Below are positions 8,638-15,810 of a DNA stretch of 43,297 bases, piece by piece. Under the pieces are notes generated by a model. That model saw only the letters and a program-made list of their open reading frames with translations, ran no database searches and had not been told where the DNA came from. A program made the position numbers and the translations under genes. The stretch's first letter is position 1, and every line of letters begins with the position of its first letter. The stretch covers positions 1-43,297 of the IMG/VR virus record IMGVR_UViG_3300044695_001799; one strand, written 5' to 3'. The stretch comes from a virus.

Positions 8638-9095
8638 TGGAAGACAAGCGAAAATTAGGAGAATTAGGTGAATTAGTAGTAGCTCATCTAATGAAAGCTA
8701 AACTATCGTCAAACCCATTTGATTCGGAAAAAGACATGACCGATAGTTATGATGATACAATAGAAGTTAAAACACAAAATCGTTGGACGTCTATAGATTG
8801 TTTTACTATCCCGCTAGATAAGCAAACTAACTTTAAAAAATGTTTAAATGTTAAACGTCTTATATTTGTTGAATACGACCATAGCGATTACATACATGTT
8901 TGGGAATGTACAGATCGTCAAAACTATTTCATTAAAGATACAAAGAATGACAAGCGTGTTTGTTGGCCTATAAGTAAAATGAAACAACTGCATAGAATTA
9001 AAACCCCGCCTCTTGCAAATAAGATGAGAGAATTATCGCAAGCATCAGAGTTTGTACAATATAAAGATGTACAGCGAGATATTTTTGTGGTATAA
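8637..9095 (+). CDS. PD-(D/E)xK-like nuclease
   Basis: A 152-residue protein starting at a TAATG overlap with the previous gene. The N-terminal helix KLGELGELVVAHLM carries glutamates, followed by FDSEKDMTD and the strand DDTIEVKTQNRWTS with an E-x-K signature, the usual order of the restriction-endonuclease fold. Further strands (RLIFVEYDHSDYIHVWE) complete a small nuclease core. The function could be DNA repair, recombination or host DNA degradation; no close relative was recognised. Its last codons contain the next promoter. Confidence 0.6.
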   Translation: MEDKRKLGELGELVVAHLMKAKLSSNPFDSEKDMTDSYDDTIEVKTQNRWTSIDCFTIPLDKQTNFKKCLNVKRLIFVEYDHSDYIHVWECTDRQNYFIKDTKNDKRVCWPISKMKQLHRIKTPPLANKMRELSQASEFVQYKDVQRDIFVV

Positions 9096-9096
9096 T
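9068..9096 (+). promoter_or_regulatory. early-type promoter at the head of the hypermodification cassette
   Basis: TGTACA (9068-9073), 17-base spacer ending GTGG, TATAAT (9091-9096). It overlaps the end of the nuclease-like gene and precedes the DUF1599 gene by 26 bases, so it likely drives the modification cassette. Confidence 0.85.
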
Positions 9097-9122: not shown

Positions 9123-9506
9123 ATGCAAAAATCATACTCAAGACCATCAGCAAATATCCTGCTAGAAGCTGCAGAAATCCAAGAAAGAAAAGGCCAAGAT
9201 TATAATAATGCAGCTAGTCGTGTTGAACAAGCTGACTATTATCCACGAGGCGTAGTCTCAATTCTTGATATCATTCATGCAAAATACCTTCGCATGGTTT
9301 CAGTCCTTGAAACTATGGAAGCTGGTGGTAATGTCAACTACGAATCAGTCGAAGACTCAGCACTTGATATGATTAACTATGCATCATTCGTAGTTGCTTA
9401 TATGCGCGGTGAAGTACCTGGTCAAAAACCTGATCGTGATATCTTCAACAAACCAAATCCAGAAAATCAAGCACTTATCCCAACAAAATTCAGAGGTACT
9501 AAGTAA
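9123..9506 (+). CDS. DUF1599 / nucleotide modification-associated domain 1 protein
   Basis: A 127-residue protein with ERKGQDYNNAASR and later ILDIIHAKYLRMVSVLE and DSALDMINYASFVVAYMRG. These fit the family called DUF1599 or Nmad1, which is known mainly for occurring beside phage DNA-modification genes and whose activity is not established. It is the first gene after the promoter and overlaps the hydroxymethylase start by one base (TAATG), so it belongs to the cassette. An alternative view is a MazG-related helical protein, as it has a similar helix pattern. Confidence 0.75.
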   Translation: MQKSYSRPSANILLEAAEIQERKGQDYNNAASRVEQADYYPRGVVSILDIIHAKYLRMVSVLETMEAGGNVNYESVEDSALDMINYASFVVAYMRGEVPGQKPDRDIFNKPNPENQALIPTKFRGTK

Positions 9507-10210
9507 TGTATGTTATTCCAACAGTTTATGATATCCGTCATCAACTTATTAATGAGTTACACGATCAAAATTTTGTAACTGATAAATCTGGTGTTAAGAC
9601 CATCGAAATAATAAATGCTTCTTTTCTTGCTGATGAAGAAGCAATATTCGGCACGCCAAACCAAGATTATATTGAACGTGAACTTAAATGGTATCGTTCA
9701 ATGTCACGTAACGTTAATGATATTCCTAATGGTCCTCCAGAAATATGGAAAATGGTTGCAGATAAGAATGGTATGATCAACTCAAATTATGGTTGGTGCA
9801 TTTATTCAGAAGAAAACGGTTATCAATTTGCTAAAGTTGTAAAAGAACTTGTAGAATCTCCATTATCTCGTCGTGCAACAATGATTTATACTAGACCAAG
9901 TATGCATGAAGATTATAATAAAAATGGTATGTCTGATTTTATGTGTACTAATGCTGTACAATATTTTATTCGTAAAGGTAAACTCCACGCGTCAGTCTAT
10001 ATGAGATCTAATGATGCTGTCTTCGGTTATAAAAATGATTATGCATGGCAAAAATATGTTCAACAACAAGTCCTTGAGGCAATCAATGGCAAGCTTTCTA
10101 CTGTATATGGTATTGGTGATCTTTTCTGGAACGTCAGCTCTCTTCATGTCTATGAGCGGCATTTTAAACTAGTAGAAGATGAGGACGGAGAATATGGACC
10201 AAACACATAA
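9506..10210 (+). CDS. 42: deoxycytidylate (or deoxyuridylate) hydroxymethylase, gp42-like
   Basis: Thymidylate-synthase-fold enzyme that adds a hydroxymethyl group to a pyrimidine nucleotide using methylene-tetrahydrofolate. It follows T4 gp42 closely: DKSGVKTIEIINASF, INSNYGWCIYSEENGY, RRATMIYTRPSM, DFMCTNAVQYFIR (catalytic Cys147; T4 Cys148) and MRSNDAVFGYKNDYAWQKY. The Asp178 aligns with T4 Asp179, which selects cytosine, whereas thymidylate synthases have Asn there, so dCMP is the favoured substrate. Length 234 (T4: 246). Genes upstream and downstream overlap it, placing it in the modification cassette; ThyX at 17.9 kb supplies ordinary dTMP. Confidence 0.9.
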   Translation: MYVIPTVYDIRHQLINELHDQNFVTDKSGVKTIEIINASFLADEEAIFGTPNQDYIERELKWYRSMSRNVNDIPNGPPEIWKMVADKNGMINSNYGWCIYSEENGYQFAKVVKELVESPLSRRATMIYTRPSMHEDYNKNGMSDFMCTNAVQYFIRKGKLHASVYMRSNDAVFGYKNDYAWQKYVQQQVLEAINGKLSTVYGIGDLFWNVSSLHVYERHFKLVEDEDGEYGPNT

Positions 10211-10643
10211 ATGGGATTTACGATATTTAGATCTAGCTAAACACGTTGCACAATGGTCGAAAGATCCTAACACTAAAGTTGGCGCTGTAGCAGTTGGACA
10301 TATGGGTCAAATATTGGCTCAAGGATATAATGGATTTCCTCGAGGTATCTTAGATACTCCTGATCGTTTAAACGATAGACCAACTAAATACAAATTTGTA
10401 GTTCATGCAGAGATGAACGTAATCTATAATGCAACATATAATGGAGTGTCATTGAATGGTGCTAGATTATATGTTTACGGTTTACCAGTTTGCAGTGAGT
10501 GTGCAAAAGGTATCATACAAGTTGGTATACAAGAAATAATTATTTCTCAAGAATGTTTGAATCTTCAACCACATTGGGTTGAAAGCTGGAAAATATCTGC
10601 AGATATGTTCGCTGAAGCTTGCATCCTCGTAAAAGTAATATGA
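10194..10643 (+). CDS. cd: dCMP deaminase
   Basis: Zinc enzyme converting dCMP to dUMP, the precursor for dTMP made by ThyX. HAEMNVI (His71, Glu73) and PVCSECAKG (Cys100, Cys103) give the zinc and catalytic site. The allosteric/substrate GYNGFPRG motif is near residues 44-51. The ATG at 10194 has GGAG upstream; an earlier in-frame ATG at 10179 lacks one. The 149-residue product is shorter than T4 Cd (193). It overlaps the hydroxymethylase end and its stop forms an ATGA overlap with the next gene. In this context it balances the dCMP pool between deamination and hydroxymethylation. Confidence 0.93.
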   Translation: MDQTHKWDLRYLDLAKHVAQWSKDPNTKVGAVAVGHMGQILAQGYNGFPRGILDTPDRLNDRPTKYKFVVHAEMNVIYNATYNGVSLNGARLYVYGLPVCSECAKGIIQVGIQEIIISQECLNLQPHWVESWKISADMFAEACILVKVI

Positions 10644-11809
10644 ACATAGAAACCACTAAATACTATGACGAATATATTCGTTATTTTAAACTAGCATTAG
10701 ACCAACAAAATAAGTGTAACGTATCTGATAGTGCACCTTATGGCATGTTGTCTCATGCTGAATCAGATATGAACGACGAGTTGTTACATCATGTGGAACT
10801 ATATGATGTAGTAGAACGTAAGTATGCTGGATTCTCTCAGATCGTAAATGATGTATTCTACGGTTGGACGGAAGAACATCCATATTGGAAAAAGATGGAA
10901 GCTGGTAAAATTACAAGGCAACGAGAAGTAGTTGCTAAGGATTGGACTGGTAAACACGCAGACTTTAAACTTCCCGAATGGCTTTACATTTTTATTTTAC
11001 ATCGTGTTTGTGGTTCAGCTATTAATTATTCTACTAAGCCTAGCGGATACCATAACACACTTCTATTCAACCTTCATAAAGCTAAGACGATTGAAGGAAT
11101 GGTTGAGATTGTAAACAAACATCCTAAACCATTCTACACATCTGTAGGATATCAATTCCCTTCATTCCCTAAACCACCAGCAGGATCGAGTTATAAACGA
11201 GGTGGAGATTACTATCTAAGTGAATATGCACCACGTTTGGCTAGAGAACTTGCAGAGTTCTTAGAACAAGGTGGCAAGCGAGATCTTCGCGAGATCGGAG
11301 ATTTCATGTTAAAGTGGAACGTAGATAACGGTCTTCGTCAATACCATTTCCAATATGCAGCAGTAGTTGCTGACATCGCAGATTGGTATCCACAATACAC
11401 TAATAAAGAATCTCCATTCTACTATGGAACTAATGCAGTTGAATGTATCTCTTACTTAGCAAAACCAACTACTAAGATGAAACCAATTCAGTTCTTAGAT
11501 AAAGTTATGGAGAAGATCTATGAAGACGTTAAGTCATATCCATATAACGCAGAGGATGTATGCTGTGACTTCATCCGTTGGGTTGAAAACTATGTTAGAC
11601 CCGGTGCAGATTACGATCACTTAGACTTCGATGCAGTATGGTCGTCATGTAAGATTAAAGACCATCCATTTGGTAGACAAGAAAATATGTTAAAGCTTGG
11701 ATTAGTAAAATCATTTAATGGTATGAAAGCACATCCATCAGATGACGCTATTATTAAACAAGCAGGTTTGACAGTAGAACAATATAAAGAACTATGCAAA
11801 ACGATTTAA
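10640..11809 (+). CDS. putative amino acid:DNA transferase / alpha-GPT pyrophosphorylase-like protein (first copy)
   Basis: A 389-residue protein starting at the ATGA overlap with dCMP deaminase. Features: PEWLYIFILHRVCGSAINY and KPSGYHNTLLF near residues 112-143, VGYQFPSFPKPP near 165, then a helical C-terminal half with AEDVCCDFIRWVENYVRPG around 320. The helical layout with a YHN motif and a late D-x-C-x-x-x-x-x-W/Y signature resembles the alpha-glutamyl/putrescinyl-thymine pyrophosphorylase superfamily, whose members replace the pyrophosphate on phosphorylated hydroxymethyl bases with an amine or amino acid. This assignment is from recalled patterns and context, not a search. No P-loop is visible, so it is not the hydroxymethyl-base kinase. 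Confidence 0.5.
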   Translation: MNIETTKYYDEYIRYFKLALDQQNKCNVSDSAPYGMLSHAESDMNDELLHHVELYDVVERKYAGFSQIVNDVFYGWTEEHPYWKKMEAGKITRQREVVAKDWTGKHADFKLPEWLYIFILHRVCGSAINYSTKPSGYHNTLLFNLHKAKTIEGMVEIVNKHPKPFYTSVGYQFPSFPKPPAGSSYKRGGDYYLSEYAPRLARELAEFLEQGGKRDLREIGDFMLKWNVDNGLRQYHFQYAAVVADIADWYPQYTNKESPFYYGTNAVECISYLAKPTTKMKPIQFLDKVMEKIYEDVKSYPYNAEDVCCDFIRWVENYVRPGADYDHLDFDAVWSSCKIKDHPFGRQENMLKLGLVKSFNGMKAHPSDDAIIKQAGLTVEQYKELCKTI

Positions 11810-12777
11810 CACAGTTTATAGACGAACCATATAATAATGTAACCTATGAAGGCACATCAGAGGTTATGTTAAAGAATGGTAAACCAACAGAAAGTTGGAT
11901 GAAGGATTGGACACAAGAACAAAGATTCGACAAGTTCTTCGAGTGGTGTCAAGCATTCGACAAGCGTGAAGATAAACTATTGAAGGAAGACTATCAGATC
12001 TTCTCTCATCGTTTGCATTGGCACGAACATCCGTTTGTAGATGTTATGCAACCAATCACTGATAATAAGTTGCGTTTATTTTATACACTTGTGTTCTCAT
12101 TTAGTAATGAACATTGGGGCACACTCACATCATTGATGAATGATGGTATCATCTTAACTCGTGAACGATTTAAGACACAACGACACGCACGAAACGATCT
12201 ATTCCAAATCTATTATCCTAAAGGTACGAACGTAAAAGATTGGTTGATAGATGGTCCAATGAAAGCTGCAGAAGATATTCATACTATCTTAGATGAACCT
12301 AAAAAGATGGGTCGTCCATTTACGATGATGGAATTTGCTAAACGTTTAGAAGCATACTTTAAAGAACATCAAAACTTTAGAAGCCCATTATATCCATGTA
12401 AAAATACAGCACGTTATATGGCATTTGCTTATCCGCATTTAGTAGATCCAGAATCGGTGTTGTTTGGTGGTACAGGTCACTTCGATGGCATGCAACAAAT
12501 ATTTGGTGGCACGAATCTAAACGGTAAAGTTAAATACGAGATTGGACCCAATGGAGAGTTTACAGCAACAAATAAATATGGTATAATGTGGCTAGAGCAA
12601 ATGAATTTATTAGCCAATGATACTCGTAATCCAATGACTGTACAAAAGATGTTAAATGTAGAAGATAAAACCTGTTTCTTTTATAAACATATTGCTATTA
12701 GTCATGGAGTTAAATCACCAACCAAACGTATTCCATATACATGGATTTTCCCACAGGAATTTAGCTTAAAAAAATGA
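11794..12777 (+). CDS. putative amino acid:DNA transferase / alpha-GPT pyrophosphorylase-like protein (second copy)
   Basis: A 327-residue protein overlapping the first copy by 16 bases. RFKTQRHARNDLFQIYYPKG, then FRSPLYPCKNTARYMAFAYP and SVLFGGTGHFDGMQQIFGG are the most conserved-looking segments. The YPCKN-ARY-A--P and G-TGHFDG stretches fit what I recall of phage base-hypermodification proteins of the same superfamily as the preceding gene. Two tandem members also occur in characterised thymidine-hypermodifying phages. The ATGA overlap with the SGNH-like gene shows one operon. The gene contains a promoter-like sequence at 12559-12587. Confidence 0.45.
   Translation: MQNDLTQFIDEPYNNVTYEGTSEVMLKNGKPTESWMKDWTQEQRFDKFFEWCQAFDKREDKLLKEDYQIFSHRLHWHEHPFVDVMQPITDNKLRLFYTLVFSFSNEHWGTLTSLMNDGIILTRERFKTQRHARNDLFQIYYPKGTNVKDWLIDGPMKAAEDIHTILDEPKKMGRPFTMMEFAKRLEAYFKEHQNFRSPLYPCKNTARYMAFAYPHLVDPESVLFGGTGHFDGMQQIFGGTNLNGKVKYEIGPNGEFTATNKYGIMWLEQMNLLANDTRNPMTVQKMLNVEDKTCFFYKHIAISHGVKSPTKRIPYTWIFPQEFSLKK
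12559..12587 (+). promoter_or_regulatory. internal promoter-like element
   Basis: TTTACA (12559-12564), a 17-base spacer ending ATGG and TATAAT (12582-12587) inside the second transferase-like gene, 190 bases before the SGNH-like gene. The architecture equals that of the intergenic promoters and the -35 variant equals the one at 39273. Confidence 0.55.
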
Positions 12778-13757
12778 ATGTCTTAACAAACCCAATTAGT
12801 AATGTACCTCAACTAAAGAACTCTCATGTCCTTGGTTGGTCACAAGTATGGGCAAACCAATTAGATGCTGCTATCGATCATAAGTGTTCTCCAAATATTG
12901 TTAATGCTTCAATCGTTTATATTGAGCACGGTGTAAACTTCGGTGGTACACTAAACTTATTTGGTGGCGCAACTAAAGAGATCTATGATAGAATCAATAG
13001 AGTTGCAGCGCATCCTAATGTAGTATCATTAGACTTCGATATGCCAGATTGGGGAGACCAACTTAAGAAACGAATTGGTGCACCGACTACATACATAGGT
13101 ATCACTGAACAATGGTGTGATGCATTATCTTTACGCTTATCAAAAGTACAATCTGTTAAACAACAAGACTTATTACAAGTATCATCTAAGTTTGATGGTA
13201 TTTCTGTAGGAGATTCACACACACCAGCATTCTCCCGTTCCACTGACATTGTACTAAGAGAAAATGGTAAGACATTATACGGTACTCTTAAACGCGGATT
13301 AATCACAGAGTTTAGAGGATTGAAACCATTTGGTAATGTAACATTCTGTTATGGATCTATTGATATTCGTCATCATATCCTTCGTCATGAGAACTTTAAC
13401 TTAGACGATATGTTAGATGAGTATGTTAGACAAGCTGTCACTATACAAAAAGAACATGGATGTGATATATCATTCACAACTCCAGTTCCAGTTGAATACG
13501 AAGATCGTAGATTACCAAAGACTGGTTATTTTAAAGGTACTCCATTCTTTGGATCAAGACAAGATCGTTTAGACTTTACATACCGAATTATAGAAGGACT
13601 AAATAAAAGAAAGGTGAATGTTATTATGCCACCTGAAGAATGGTACAAGATGGATGGTGAGAAGTATGCAAAGACTTATATGGAAAATAGTTCGAGCGTT
13701 CATATTTCACCACAATATTATAGACGAAATGATTGGGGTCAAACTTGTTTAGCATAA
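12774..13757 (+). CDS. SGNH/GDSL-like hydrolase or acyltransferase of the modification cassette
   Basis: A 327-residue protein starting at an ATGA overlap. GDSH at residues 146-149 matches the nucleophile block of SGNH enzymes, YGSIDIRHH at 193-201 sits where block III (G-x-N/D) is expected, and SVHIS near 308-312 could supply the catalytic histidine, though the usual D-x-x-H spacing is not evident. The first 140 residues form a separate domain. SGNH enzymes are esterases, lipases or O-acyltransferases; acting on a DNA modification or its precursor is inference from the operon. A promoter-like element lies inside the previous gene. Confidence 0.55.
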   Translation: MNVLTNPISNVPQLKNSHVLGWSQVWANQLDAAIDHKCSPNIVNASIVYIEHGVNFGGTLNLFGGATKEIYDRINRVAAHPNVVSLDFDMPDWGDQLKKRIGAPTTYIGITEQWCDALSLRLSKVQSVKQQDLLQVSSKFDGISVGDSHTPAFSRSTDIVLRENGKTLYGTLKRGLITEFRGLKPFGNVTFCYGSIDIRHHILRHENFNLDDMLDEYVRQAVTIQKEHGCDISFTTPVPVEYEDRRLPKTGYFKGTPFFGSRQDRLDFTYRIIEGLNKRKVNVIMPPEEWYKMDGEKYAKTYMENSSSVHISPQYYRRNDWGQTCLA

Positions 13758-14707
13758 CAGAAGATACAGGTAATAAAGATATCCCGATGGGAATGGATCG
13801 CAGTGATGCGAAAAAATATTATGAAGAATTGTGGGGATCATATGATTCTAAAATATCAGATCCAGTAATAGAATCATATGGAGATAAATTTATACTAAGA
13901 GCTGATTTAGCACCAGGCGGATTGAAAGCTTTCGGTGGTGAAAGAGTTATAGCAGAATCAAAGTATGATACATTTACATATTGTGCACCTCGACAAGGTC
14001 ATGCTATGGATGCTATTTCAATGTTAGCAGAGATGTATAATAAAAAAGTAGTATTCTTTTGTCCGTCATCTAAAGAAGTATCAGATCATCAAGGTGCATT
14101 ATTCTCGTATCCTCACGTTGATATGCGATTCGTTCGTATTGCTGCAATGCCAGTTTTAAATCAATATGCAAAGAAATGGGCAAAAGAAAATAATGCGCAG
14201 TATCTTCCATTAGGTTTAAAAGATGTTCCAATTGTTACAGCAGGACTTGTAAACATGGCAAATAAGATAACTAAACAATTAGGTAAAGAACCTACACAAA
14301 TTTGGTGTGCAGTTTCAACAGGAACTATGATACGTGCATTGCAAATTGGATGGCCGACAGCAGAAGCACATGGTATTGCAGTGGCACGTAATATACATAA
14401 AGGTGAAATCGGTGATGCGAAAGTTGTAACAGCAACTATGCCTTTTCTTAAAGCATGCATTACAAAAAATCCTATGCCATTCCCATCGACAGCGGCATAT
14501 GATGCAAAAGCATGGGACGCTTTTGTTGAGCACGGAAAACCAGGATCTATTTTTATTAATGTTGGTGCTGATGAACATATCAATAGAAACTTGTCAAAAG
14601 TAGATATATCTAATATCAATAGTTACAGAGAATGGCATGATATGGAAGATTTAAAACGCAATAGAGCATTTAAAAACAGTGTACAAACTAGTGAAAATGT
14701 GGTATAA
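13733..14707 (+). CDS. PLP-dependent enzyme, fold type II (ACC deaminase / tryptophan synthase beta-like)
   Basis: A protein of up to 324 residues. ILRADLAPGGLKAFGGERVI contains the likely Schiff-base lysine (Lys65 from the first start). YCAPRQGHAMDAISMLAEMY resembles the helix after the S-x-N-H-A-x-A motif, and AVSTGTMIRALQIG resembles the glycine-rich phosphate-binding loop of fold-type II PLP enzymes such as ACC deaminase/D-cysteine desulfhydrase. The start is uncertain: TTG at 13733 or 13745, or ATG at 13787, none with a clear ribosome site. As the last gene of the cassette it could make or trim an amino-acid-derived group on DNA. It ends in the UvsX promoter. Confidence 0.65.
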   Translation: MGSNLFSITEDTGNKDIPMGMDRSDAKKYYEELWGSYDSKISDPVIESYGDKFILRADLAPGGLKAFGGERVIAESKYDTFTYCAPRQGHAMDAISMLAEMYNKKVVFFCPSSKEVSDHQGALFSYPHVDMRFVRIAAMPVLNQYAKKWAKENNAQYLPLGLKDVPIVTAGLVNMANKITKQLGKEPTQIWCAVSTGTMIRALQIGWPTAEAHGIAVARNIHKGEIGDAKVVTATMPFLKACITKNPMPFPSTAAYDAKAWDAFVEHGKPGSIFINVGADEHINRNLSKVDISNINSYREWHDMEDLKRNRAFKNSVQTSENVV

Positions 14708-14708
14708 T
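14680..14708 (+). promoter_or_regulatory. early-type promoter upstream of uvsX
   Basis: TGTACA (14680-14685), 17-base spacer ending GTGG, TATAAT (14703-14708), overlapping the end of the PLP gene, 31 bases before uvsX. Confidence 0.85.
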
Positions 14709-14739: not shown

Positions 14740-15810
14740 ATGGGCTTAATGAGCAAACTACAGAAGAATTCAAAAATCGAATTCACTTCCCCGCTCGAAG
14801 ACTCGAAATTCTTCGGCGACAAAGATATGATTACAACACCAGTTCCAATGGTGAATGTAGCGCTAAGTGGTAAACTTGATGGTGGTTTGACACCAGGATT
14901 GACAGTACTTGCTGGTCCGTCCAAACATTTCAAAACTGCTTTTAGTTTACTTATGGCTAAAGCATACATGGACAAATATAAAGATTCAGTATTGTTATTT
15001 TATGATTCTGAATTTGGTACTCCTCAAGGATATTTCGATTCTTTTGCTATTGATAAATCTCGAGTACTTCATACTCCTATCACTGATGTAGAACAATTAA
15101 AATTTGACTTAGTATCACAGCTCAATAATCTTGATCGTGGTGAAAAAGTCATTGTAATTATCGACTCAGTTGGTAATTTGGCATCTAAGAAAGAAATGGA
15201 AGATGCGTTGAACGAAAAATCTGTGGCAGATATGTCACGTGCTAAAGCACTTAAAGGTTTGTTCCGTATGATTACTCCATATCTAACAATGAAAGATGTG
15301 CCATTGCTTGCTGTGAATCACACGTATATGGAAATCGGTATGTTCCCTAAAGCAGTAGTTTCTGGTGGAACAGGAATCTATTATTCAGCTGATACAATTT
15401 GGATTTTAGGTCGTCAACAAGATAAAGAAGGTACAGAGATTAAAGGTTACCACTTTATTATTAATGTGGAGAAAAGTCGTTATGTTAGAGAAAAGTCTAA
15501 GATACCTTTATCTGTTAGCTATGAAGGTGGAATTCAGCGTTATTCTGGTTTGCTTGACGTTGCTTTGGCTGGCGGTTTCGTCGGTAAACCTTCTAACGGG
15601 TGGTATCAAAAAGTGGACAGAAACACTGGTGAGTTCTTGGATCCAAAGGTACGAGAGAAAGAAACGCTATGCGAAGAATTCTGGTCACCACTATTAAAAG
15701 ATCCAGCATTTCAAAAATATATTACAGACACATATCAAATGGGTACTGGTAAGATGTATCAAACAATAGAACCAAGTCATGCAGAAGAGTTGACTGATGA
15801 AGATATCTAA
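14740..15810 (+). CDS. uvsX: UvsX RecA-like recombinase
   Basis: Strand-exchange protein for recombination-dependent replication and repair. The 356-residue protein (T4: 391) has the N-terminal FFGDKDMITTPVPMVNVALSG, Walker A AGPSKHFKTAFSL (T4 has the same GPSK-FK form), LLFYDSEFG, a Walker B-like VIVIIDSVGN and the AVNHTYMEIG and SGGTGIYYSADTIW loops. Its first codons are C-rich in the third position. It ends overlapping the next gene by 14 bases. Together with gp41 it forms a recombination/replication operon. Confidence 0.95.
   Translation: MGLMSKLQKNSKIEFTSPLEDSKFFGDKDMITTPVPMVNVALSGKLDGGLTPGLTVLAGPSKHFKTAFSLLMAKAYMDKYKDSVLLFYDSEFGTPQGYFDSFAIDKSRVLHTPITDVEQLKFDLVSQLNNLDRGEKVIVIIDSVGNLASKKEMEDALNEKSVADMSRAKALKGLFRMITPYLTMKDVPLLAVNHTYMEIGMFPKAVVSGGTGIYYSADTIWILGRQQDKEGTEIKGYHFIINVEKSRYVREKSKIPLSVSYEGGIQRYSGLLDVALAGGFVGKPSNGWYQKVDRNTGEFLDPKVREKETLCEEFWSPLLKDPAFQKYITDTYQMGTGKMYQTIEPSHAEELTDEDI

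Follow-up and report, generated by a model that had tools for sequence, protein, structure and literature searches.

Here we describe a cassette of genes for the predicted hypermodification of DNA bases in the IMG/VR virus record IMGVR_UViG_3300044695_001799, which was analyzed over its full length of 43,297 bases (the window, below) and is itself a genome fragment. The cassette is made up of seven open reading frames (ORFs) on the plus strand, spanning positions 9123-14707 and each overlapping the next by 1 to 32 nucleotides; a preliminary description of this DNA had placed all seven correctly. The first one, g1 (9123-9506), was there assigned to DUF1599/Nmad1, a group associated with nucleotide modification, and this assignment is firm in PHROGs (phrog_1485, 1e-18) but weak in Pfam (PF07659, E-value 0.0013, below the cut-off). 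It is followed by g2 (9506-10210), a hydroxymethylase of deoxycytidylate (dCMP) of the T4 gp42 type (PF00303, 5e-15; phrog_160, 7e-54), and by g3 (10179-10643), whose identification as a dCMP deaminase holds in both libraries (PF00383, 8e-19; phrog_174, 2e-40). The next two genes, g4 (10640-11809) and g5 (11794-12777), encode all-helical proteins of 389 and 327 residues, the second being a structural relative of the first; scans of Pfam, PHROGs and NCBIfam with both, singly and over their members, returned no family. The last two are g6 (12774-13757), for an SGNH-like protein of 327 residues with an extra N-terminal domain (phrog_13881, 1e-121), and g7 (13745-14707), for a fold type II enzyme of about 320 residues dependent on pyridoxal 5'-phosphate (PLP; phrog_7093, 1e-66), with a TTG start at 13745 or 13733.

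An extended -10 promoter-like site, TGTACA-N14-TGGTATAAT, lies on the plus strand 5' of the cassette (9068-9096). This promoter, already proposed in the preliminary description, is a perfect copy of the motif TGTACA-N14-TGnTATAAT, which with at most one mismatch occurs 12 times in the window, only on the plus strand (at 62, 4637, 7192, 9068, 12559, 14680, 18722, 34821, 39273, 41393, 41898 and 43214), far above the 0.06 copies expected by chance. The motif probably represents a promoter class of the phage's own. A second perfect copy on the same strand (14680-14708), at the end of g7 and 5' of uvsX (14740-15810; PF21134, 8e-15; phrog_97, 5e-89), marks the downstream border of the cassette transcription unit; the two perfect copies flank the cassette, and the one inside it, at 12559, carries one mismatch.

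At least 483 IMG/VR contigs contain a relative of g4 and 405 one of g5, a further four contigs come from genome bins, and neither g4 nor g5 has a relative among 50,697 phage records. Linkage was counted over 54 distinct loci in which g4 is flanked by 4 kb or more on either side. All 54 contain a g6 homologue and 52 the PLP gene, with g5 in 40, a gp42 homologue nearby in 39, Nmad1 in 36 and the dCMP deaminase in 31; two of the 15 loci without a nearby gp42 have a g2 homologue at greater distance. Of all cassette genes, g4 is the most conserved, and g5 is missing from about a quarter of the loci. The order also differs (g4-g5-g6-PLP, g4-g5-PLP-g6 or g6-g4-g5-PLP). Co-occurrence despite this varying order argues for genes held together by function: the cassette is a real module, not a chance grouping.

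The base involved is indicated by g2, which shares 58-63% identity with gp42 of T4-like phages and has the catalytic Cys seen in every hydroxymethylase copy compared. In T4, Asp179 decides between dCMP and deoxyuridylate (dUMP) as substrate (PMC6400193). At this position Asp is found in g2 and in 100 of 100 cassette-linked hydroxymethylases, as well as in those of larger contigs of relatives (G001-G006 and G012), and G009 has a copy that is more distant and likewise carries Asp. Phage M6, whose DNA contains 5-(2-aminoethyl)deoxyuridine (PMC6449724), has Asn in its dUMP-type enzyme. The Asn of a dUMP hydroxymethylase of the M6-type pathway, with its uracil/thymine base, is not what g2 carries. 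Since g2 is gp42-like and has Asp at the D179 position, its first product, judged from identity and active site, would be 5-hydroxymethyl-dCMP. The hydroxymethylated pyrimidine of the preliminary description can be narrowed accordingly in scope: the predicted substrate base is specifically cytosine, not uracil or thymine.

Loci without a gp42 neighbour were considered for other sources of 5-hydroxymethylcytosine (5hmC). TET/JBP oxygenases gave no match in the gp42-less lineages, nor did the control of that search. A neighbouring C5-methyltransferase as substitute for gp42 was rejected, as it stands only beside gp42 (7 of 39 loci counted, versus 0 of 15 without it). A relative of T4 gp56 (dCTP/dUTP pyrophosphatase) is present in 8 of these 15 loci. 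As separate observations, a C5-cytosine DNA methyltransferase gene (PF00145, 1e-18) lies directly 3' of g6 in 13 loci (L036:12063-13268, L134, L066 and others), and in lineages without an adjacent gp42 a gp56-like gene follows the PLP gene directly or lies nearby in 14 loci (L164:10689-11156, L156, L167, L185).

A direct link to a known hypermodification pathway comes from g7. M6 gp52 is a full-length member (2e-159) of phrog_7093, the same PHROG that g7 matches. Aligned by hhalign, the g7 and gp52 families reach a probability of 97.6% (E-value 4e-12, 215 columns), none of the 15 remaining pairings between cassette families and M6 families exceeds 1.3%, and searches with the hidden Markov models of the two families match reciprocally. 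Furthermore, both share Lys61, the presumed PLP lysine, and a C-terminal PFP..YD.KAW..WN signature; K61, P245-F246-P247, Y252-D253, K255, W257 and N272 are invariant in seven diverse members of the g7/gp52 family. Judged by its sequence, g7 is a member of the M6 gp52 family: its earlier description as fold type II was right, but not the idea of an unfamiliar finishing enzyme. Enzymes of the gp52 type are said by Lee et al. to decarboxylate an amino acid carried by the base. M6-like phages have a PLP enzyme in their cassette (PMC9476957), and in M6 the pathway comprises gp51 (amino acid:DNA transferase, ADDT), gp52 (PLP), gp53 (radical SAM), gp54 (kinase), gp55 (HMUDK_hel), gp56 (Nmad5) and gp58 (thymidylate synthase, TS), with the aminoethyl nucleoside as product.

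The g7 family also appears in other contexts. In Erythrobacter phage ZS04 (L200:2326-4764), its PLP domain shares a single polypeptide with DNA-methyltransferase motifs, and in Microcystis phage Mae-JY30 (L199:6995-7705) a related PLP domain adjoins two ParB/sulfiredoxin genes; both loci may represent further systems of DNA modification that use PLP enzymes of this family. A LOG-type protein of the 'possible lysine decarboxylase' kind (PF03641, 3e-31) is encoded between g5 and the PLP gene in 13 loci (L164:9050-9736, L185:9002-9694).

The helical proteins g4 and g5 had been seen as two tandem proteins resembling amino acid:DNA transferases, and it is their predicted fold that speaks for this. 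AlphaFold2 models were obtained with mean confidence (pLDDT, predicted local distance difference test) of 89.9 for g4 and 89.7 for g5 and compared by Foldseek with viral models. Leaving aside orthologues and uncharacterised proteins, the closest models with a name were, for g4, the 5-hydroxymethyldeoxyuridine (5-hmdU) DNA kinase of SP10 (probability 0.98) and HMUDK-helical proteins of PhiW-14 (0.90) and RSL1 (0.80), and, for g5, the HMUDK-helical protein of Lucky3 (0.99) and the SP10 5-hmdU DNA kinase (0.93); g5 also matched a g4 orthologue (1.00). A structure prediction had been advised to look for a helical core resembling that of DNA glycosylases, and the top two PDB folds of g4, 1xg7 (0.92) and 3knt (0.84), are helix-hairpin-helix (HhH) DNA glycosylases of the 8-oxoguanine type. 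The models support the 5-hmdU-kinase-helical/amino acid:DNA transferase fold group for g4 and g5, though not membership in its sequence families. The UniProt name of the orthologues, 'Amino acid:DNA transferase domain-containing', carries little weight here, as PF18724 gave no match. Sequence searches of the PDB with the g4, g5, g6 and PLP profiles gave no significant match.

Two peculiarities of g4 loci were recorded. At L030:7998-9149, g4 is broken into two adjoining ORFs. A protein of 139 residues like the uracil-DNA glycosylase (UDG) superfamily (PF03167, E-value 6e-4) is encoded directly 5' of g4 in 84 loci (L036:7586-8002 and similar ones); in the window, the stretch from g3 to g4 showed no gene of this kind.

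The remaining protein, g6, contains the motifs GDSH (residues 146-149), GxIDxRxH (194-201) and SVHxS (around His310), with invariant residues; of 36 members, only 2 match an SGNH profile (PF00657, 0.013). A homologue of g6 forms the N-terminal part of ORF233c of Aeromonas phage 44RR2.8t (L197:8995-11382; 795 residues; phrog_17781, uncharacterised), whose C-terminal region gives weak HMUDK_hel matches in two libraries (E-values 0.0036 and 0.0014) and has no sequence signal with g4 or g5. No homologue of g4, g5 or the PLP enzyme was found in 44RR; this phage has gp42 as well, and proteins of the ORF233c type occur in cultured phages with gp42, Aeromonas phage 31 among them. These matches weakly suggest that ORF233c is an arrangement of kinase plus helical domain with g6 in the position of the kinase. 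As a lead from sequence, g6 would be the best candidate to stand in for the kinase, activating or modifying the hydroxymethyl group. The motifs of g6 agree with the SGNH-like protein of the preliminary description, whereas its assignment of g6 to the finishing steps fares less well: full conservation with g4 and the 44RR fusion point to an early role, not to finishing alone.

Altogether, the evidence supports the proposal that this T4-like phage carries a cassette for the hypermodification of DNA bases, with a gp42-like hydroxymethylase. We propose, with a probability of about two in three, that the cassette makes a post-replicative, amino-acid-based hypermodification of 5hmC in phage DNA. In such a pathway, g2 would make 5-hydroxymethyl-dCMP, which would then be polymerised into DNA, with g1 and g3 tuning the nucleotide pool. 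Going by fold and linkage, g4 and g5 would hold the 5hmC base in DNA for its CH2OH group to be activated and an amino acid or amine to be transferred, much as proteins of the HMUDK-helical and amino acid:DNA transferase types act on 5-hydroxymethyluracil in phages such as M6. In turn, g6 would take the step for which M6-type systems use a P-loop kinase, or else act on the group once it is installed, and g7 would carry out PLP chemistry on the base-attached amino acid, most likely a decarboxylation leaving an amine-bearing cytosine; here the family is observed and the reaction predicted. The expected effect would be to shield the DNA from restriction and other DNA-targeting defences. Synthesis of the 5hmC precursor appears better supported than what would come after it, namely polymerisation, base holding, activation by g6, transfer and trimming by g7.

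One version of this pathway is kinase-free: g6 would activate the hydroxymethyl of 5hmC with a non-phosphate group, e.g., an acyl ester, on the base held by g4/g5, an amino acid would displace this group, and the M6-type PLP enzyme would trim it to the amine. We regard this route as rather doubtful; if true, it would combine a base and an activation chemistry so far undescribed in DNA.

Several results weigh against a 5hmC-based, amino-acid hypermodification. Regarding the base, 13 of the 54 g4 loci have no gp42 homologue within the stored locus, G007 has a dUMP-type synthase only, and across the whole contigs of G008 and G010 no gp42 homologue was seen, so that cytosine would be no more than a tentative starting base there. 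In G011, no member of the hydroxymethylase family was seen. Regarding the helical proteins, the profile search advised in the preliminary description gave no match to PF18723 (HMUDK_hel) or PF18724 (ADDT) in 23 g4 and 13 g5 members, nor in 12 relatives, leaving the assignment to structure. Aligning the profiles of g4 and g5 with those of M6 gp51 and gp55 gave no signal with single or with deepened M6 families (at most 1.3% probability with the latter), in a test that is blunt since HMUDK_hel against ADDT itself gives only 2.5%. Structural overlaps with HMUDK proteins are partial (TM, template modelling, scores of about 0.35-0.47), and the solved amino acid:DNA transferases in the PDB, 8z2m and 25qc, are not among the matches of g4. 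Regarding activation, no hydroxymethyl-base DNA kinase (HMUDK_HMUD1, PF18748) was found in the 12 relatives or, in agreement with the preliminary description, in the window, a genome fragment, and no M6-type radical SAM protein in the relatives tested; with neither found, the M6 pathway therefore cannot be copied step by step. Finally, the chemistry of the cassette is predicted from its genes. Matches of the M6-kinase profile in two near-complete relatives were discarded as clamp-loader ATPases, and T4 gp1 kinase gave no match in a search run without a control.

The strongest rival is a glycosylation-type system, in which g6 would be a distant relative of T4 beta-glucosyltransferase adding a sugar to 5hmC, g4 and g5 would help to locate the base, and the PLP enzyme would make or edit an amino sugar or serve nucleotide metabolism. 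Indeed, 5hmC is the substrate of T4 beta-glucosyltransferase, and the N-terminal part of g6 is weakly like the N-terminal domain of that enzyme (PF09198; 11 of 36 members, best E-value 0.0024, below the cut-off; E-value 4e-4 by hhalign, with a probability of just 35%); in many loci a possible glycosyltransferase of phrog_1574 lies 3' of the cassette. However, this likeness is weak and was picked from many comparisons, g6 carries SGNH motifs in its C-terminal half, with no match there to a sugar-nucleotide domain of the GT-B type, and the PLP enzyme belongs to the gp52 family, whose pathway in M6 is sugar-free. We consider glycosylation unlikely.

The top PDB folds of g4 and the UDG-superfamily-like gene often 5' of it would also suit true DNA glycosylases, with g4 and g5 excising certain bases, e.g., the cytosine of competing DNA, either unmodified or hydroxymethylated, as a module for attack or repair that accompanies a normal gp42 operon. 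This is still less likely, since the 5-hmdU kinase/transferase group, which has the same fold, is matched better and more often in the viral library, and glycosylases would not need the M6-type PLP enzyme found in 52 of the 54 loci. Equally improbable is modification at the nucleotide level, or a role in amino-acid or nucleotide metabolism with g4-g7 not acting on DNA: the neighbours g1-g3 are nucleotide-pool enzymes and fold-type-II PLP proteins are usually metabolic enzymes, but the fold of g4 is DNA-glycosylase-like, and relatives of the PLP enzyme are fused to a DNA methyltransferase in one polypeptide and take part in the M6 DNA pathway.

The proposed hypermodification of 5hmC can be set against known systems. 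Like M6, the cassette has a hydroxymethylase of the TS family, a dCMP deaminase and an Nmad protein, together with a pair of all-helical proteins predicted to fall into one fold group, and its PLP enzyme comes from the same family as that of M6. It differs in its predicted base, cytosine rather than the uracil of M6 (Asp versus Asn), in helical proteins unrelated to those of M6 by sequence profile, and in having an SGNH-like protein, whereas an M6-type P-loop kinase and radical SAM protein were not found in the relatives tested. With the 5hmC system of T4 (gp42, cd, gp56 and glucosyltransferases) it shares the gp42-type hydroxymethylase and the dCMP deaminase, within a T4-like genome with uvsX and gp41-like genes; unlike in T4, g4-g7 would come after 5hmC, and sequence searches of two near-complete relatives gave no beta-glucosyltransferase homologue. 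The 44RR2.8t case has in common the g6-homologous part of ORF233c and gp42 in the phage, and differs in the fused, weakly HMUDK_hel-like region. In cyanophage S-B43, the 5-carboxymethylcytosine-glycine system (CmoA, CmoX, CmoY; PMC12783734) likewise places an amino acid on a cytosine handle in phage DNA, but does not start from 5hmC, relying instead on carboxymethyl transfer and an ATP-dependent amide ligase, and its named enzymes were not seen in the cassette. The 5hmC carbamoyltransferase found by MetaGPA (PMC8670742) is comparable in that 5hmC is derivatised further in environmental phage DNA; unlike the cassette, it performs a single carbamoyl transfer, and family scans showed no relative of it among the cassette proteins.

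Other genes near the relatives of the cassette include one for a phrog_1574 protein (function unassigned) with weak glycosyltransferase similarity, 3' of the cassette in 64 loci (L036:13500-14390 and relatives). A neighbour of 401 residues in L167, considered as a methyltransferase, was rejected as such and is a glycosyltransferase. At L149:3758-5758, the terminase resembles an intein splicing domain (PF14890, 4.5e-6).

In the literature searched, amino-acid-derived hypermodification via hydroxymethylated bases is described only on 5-hydroxymethyluracil. The cassette would extend the same logic to 5hmC, as a cytosine counterpart of the thymine pathways with one enzyme family in common with M6. 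It is common in nature, as reflected by the abundance of g4 contigs, yet g4 and g5 are missing from the phage records searched. The finding would provide named families for assay, a possible source of enzymes for 5hmC labelling, and a question that can be tested in isolates such as 44RR2.8t.

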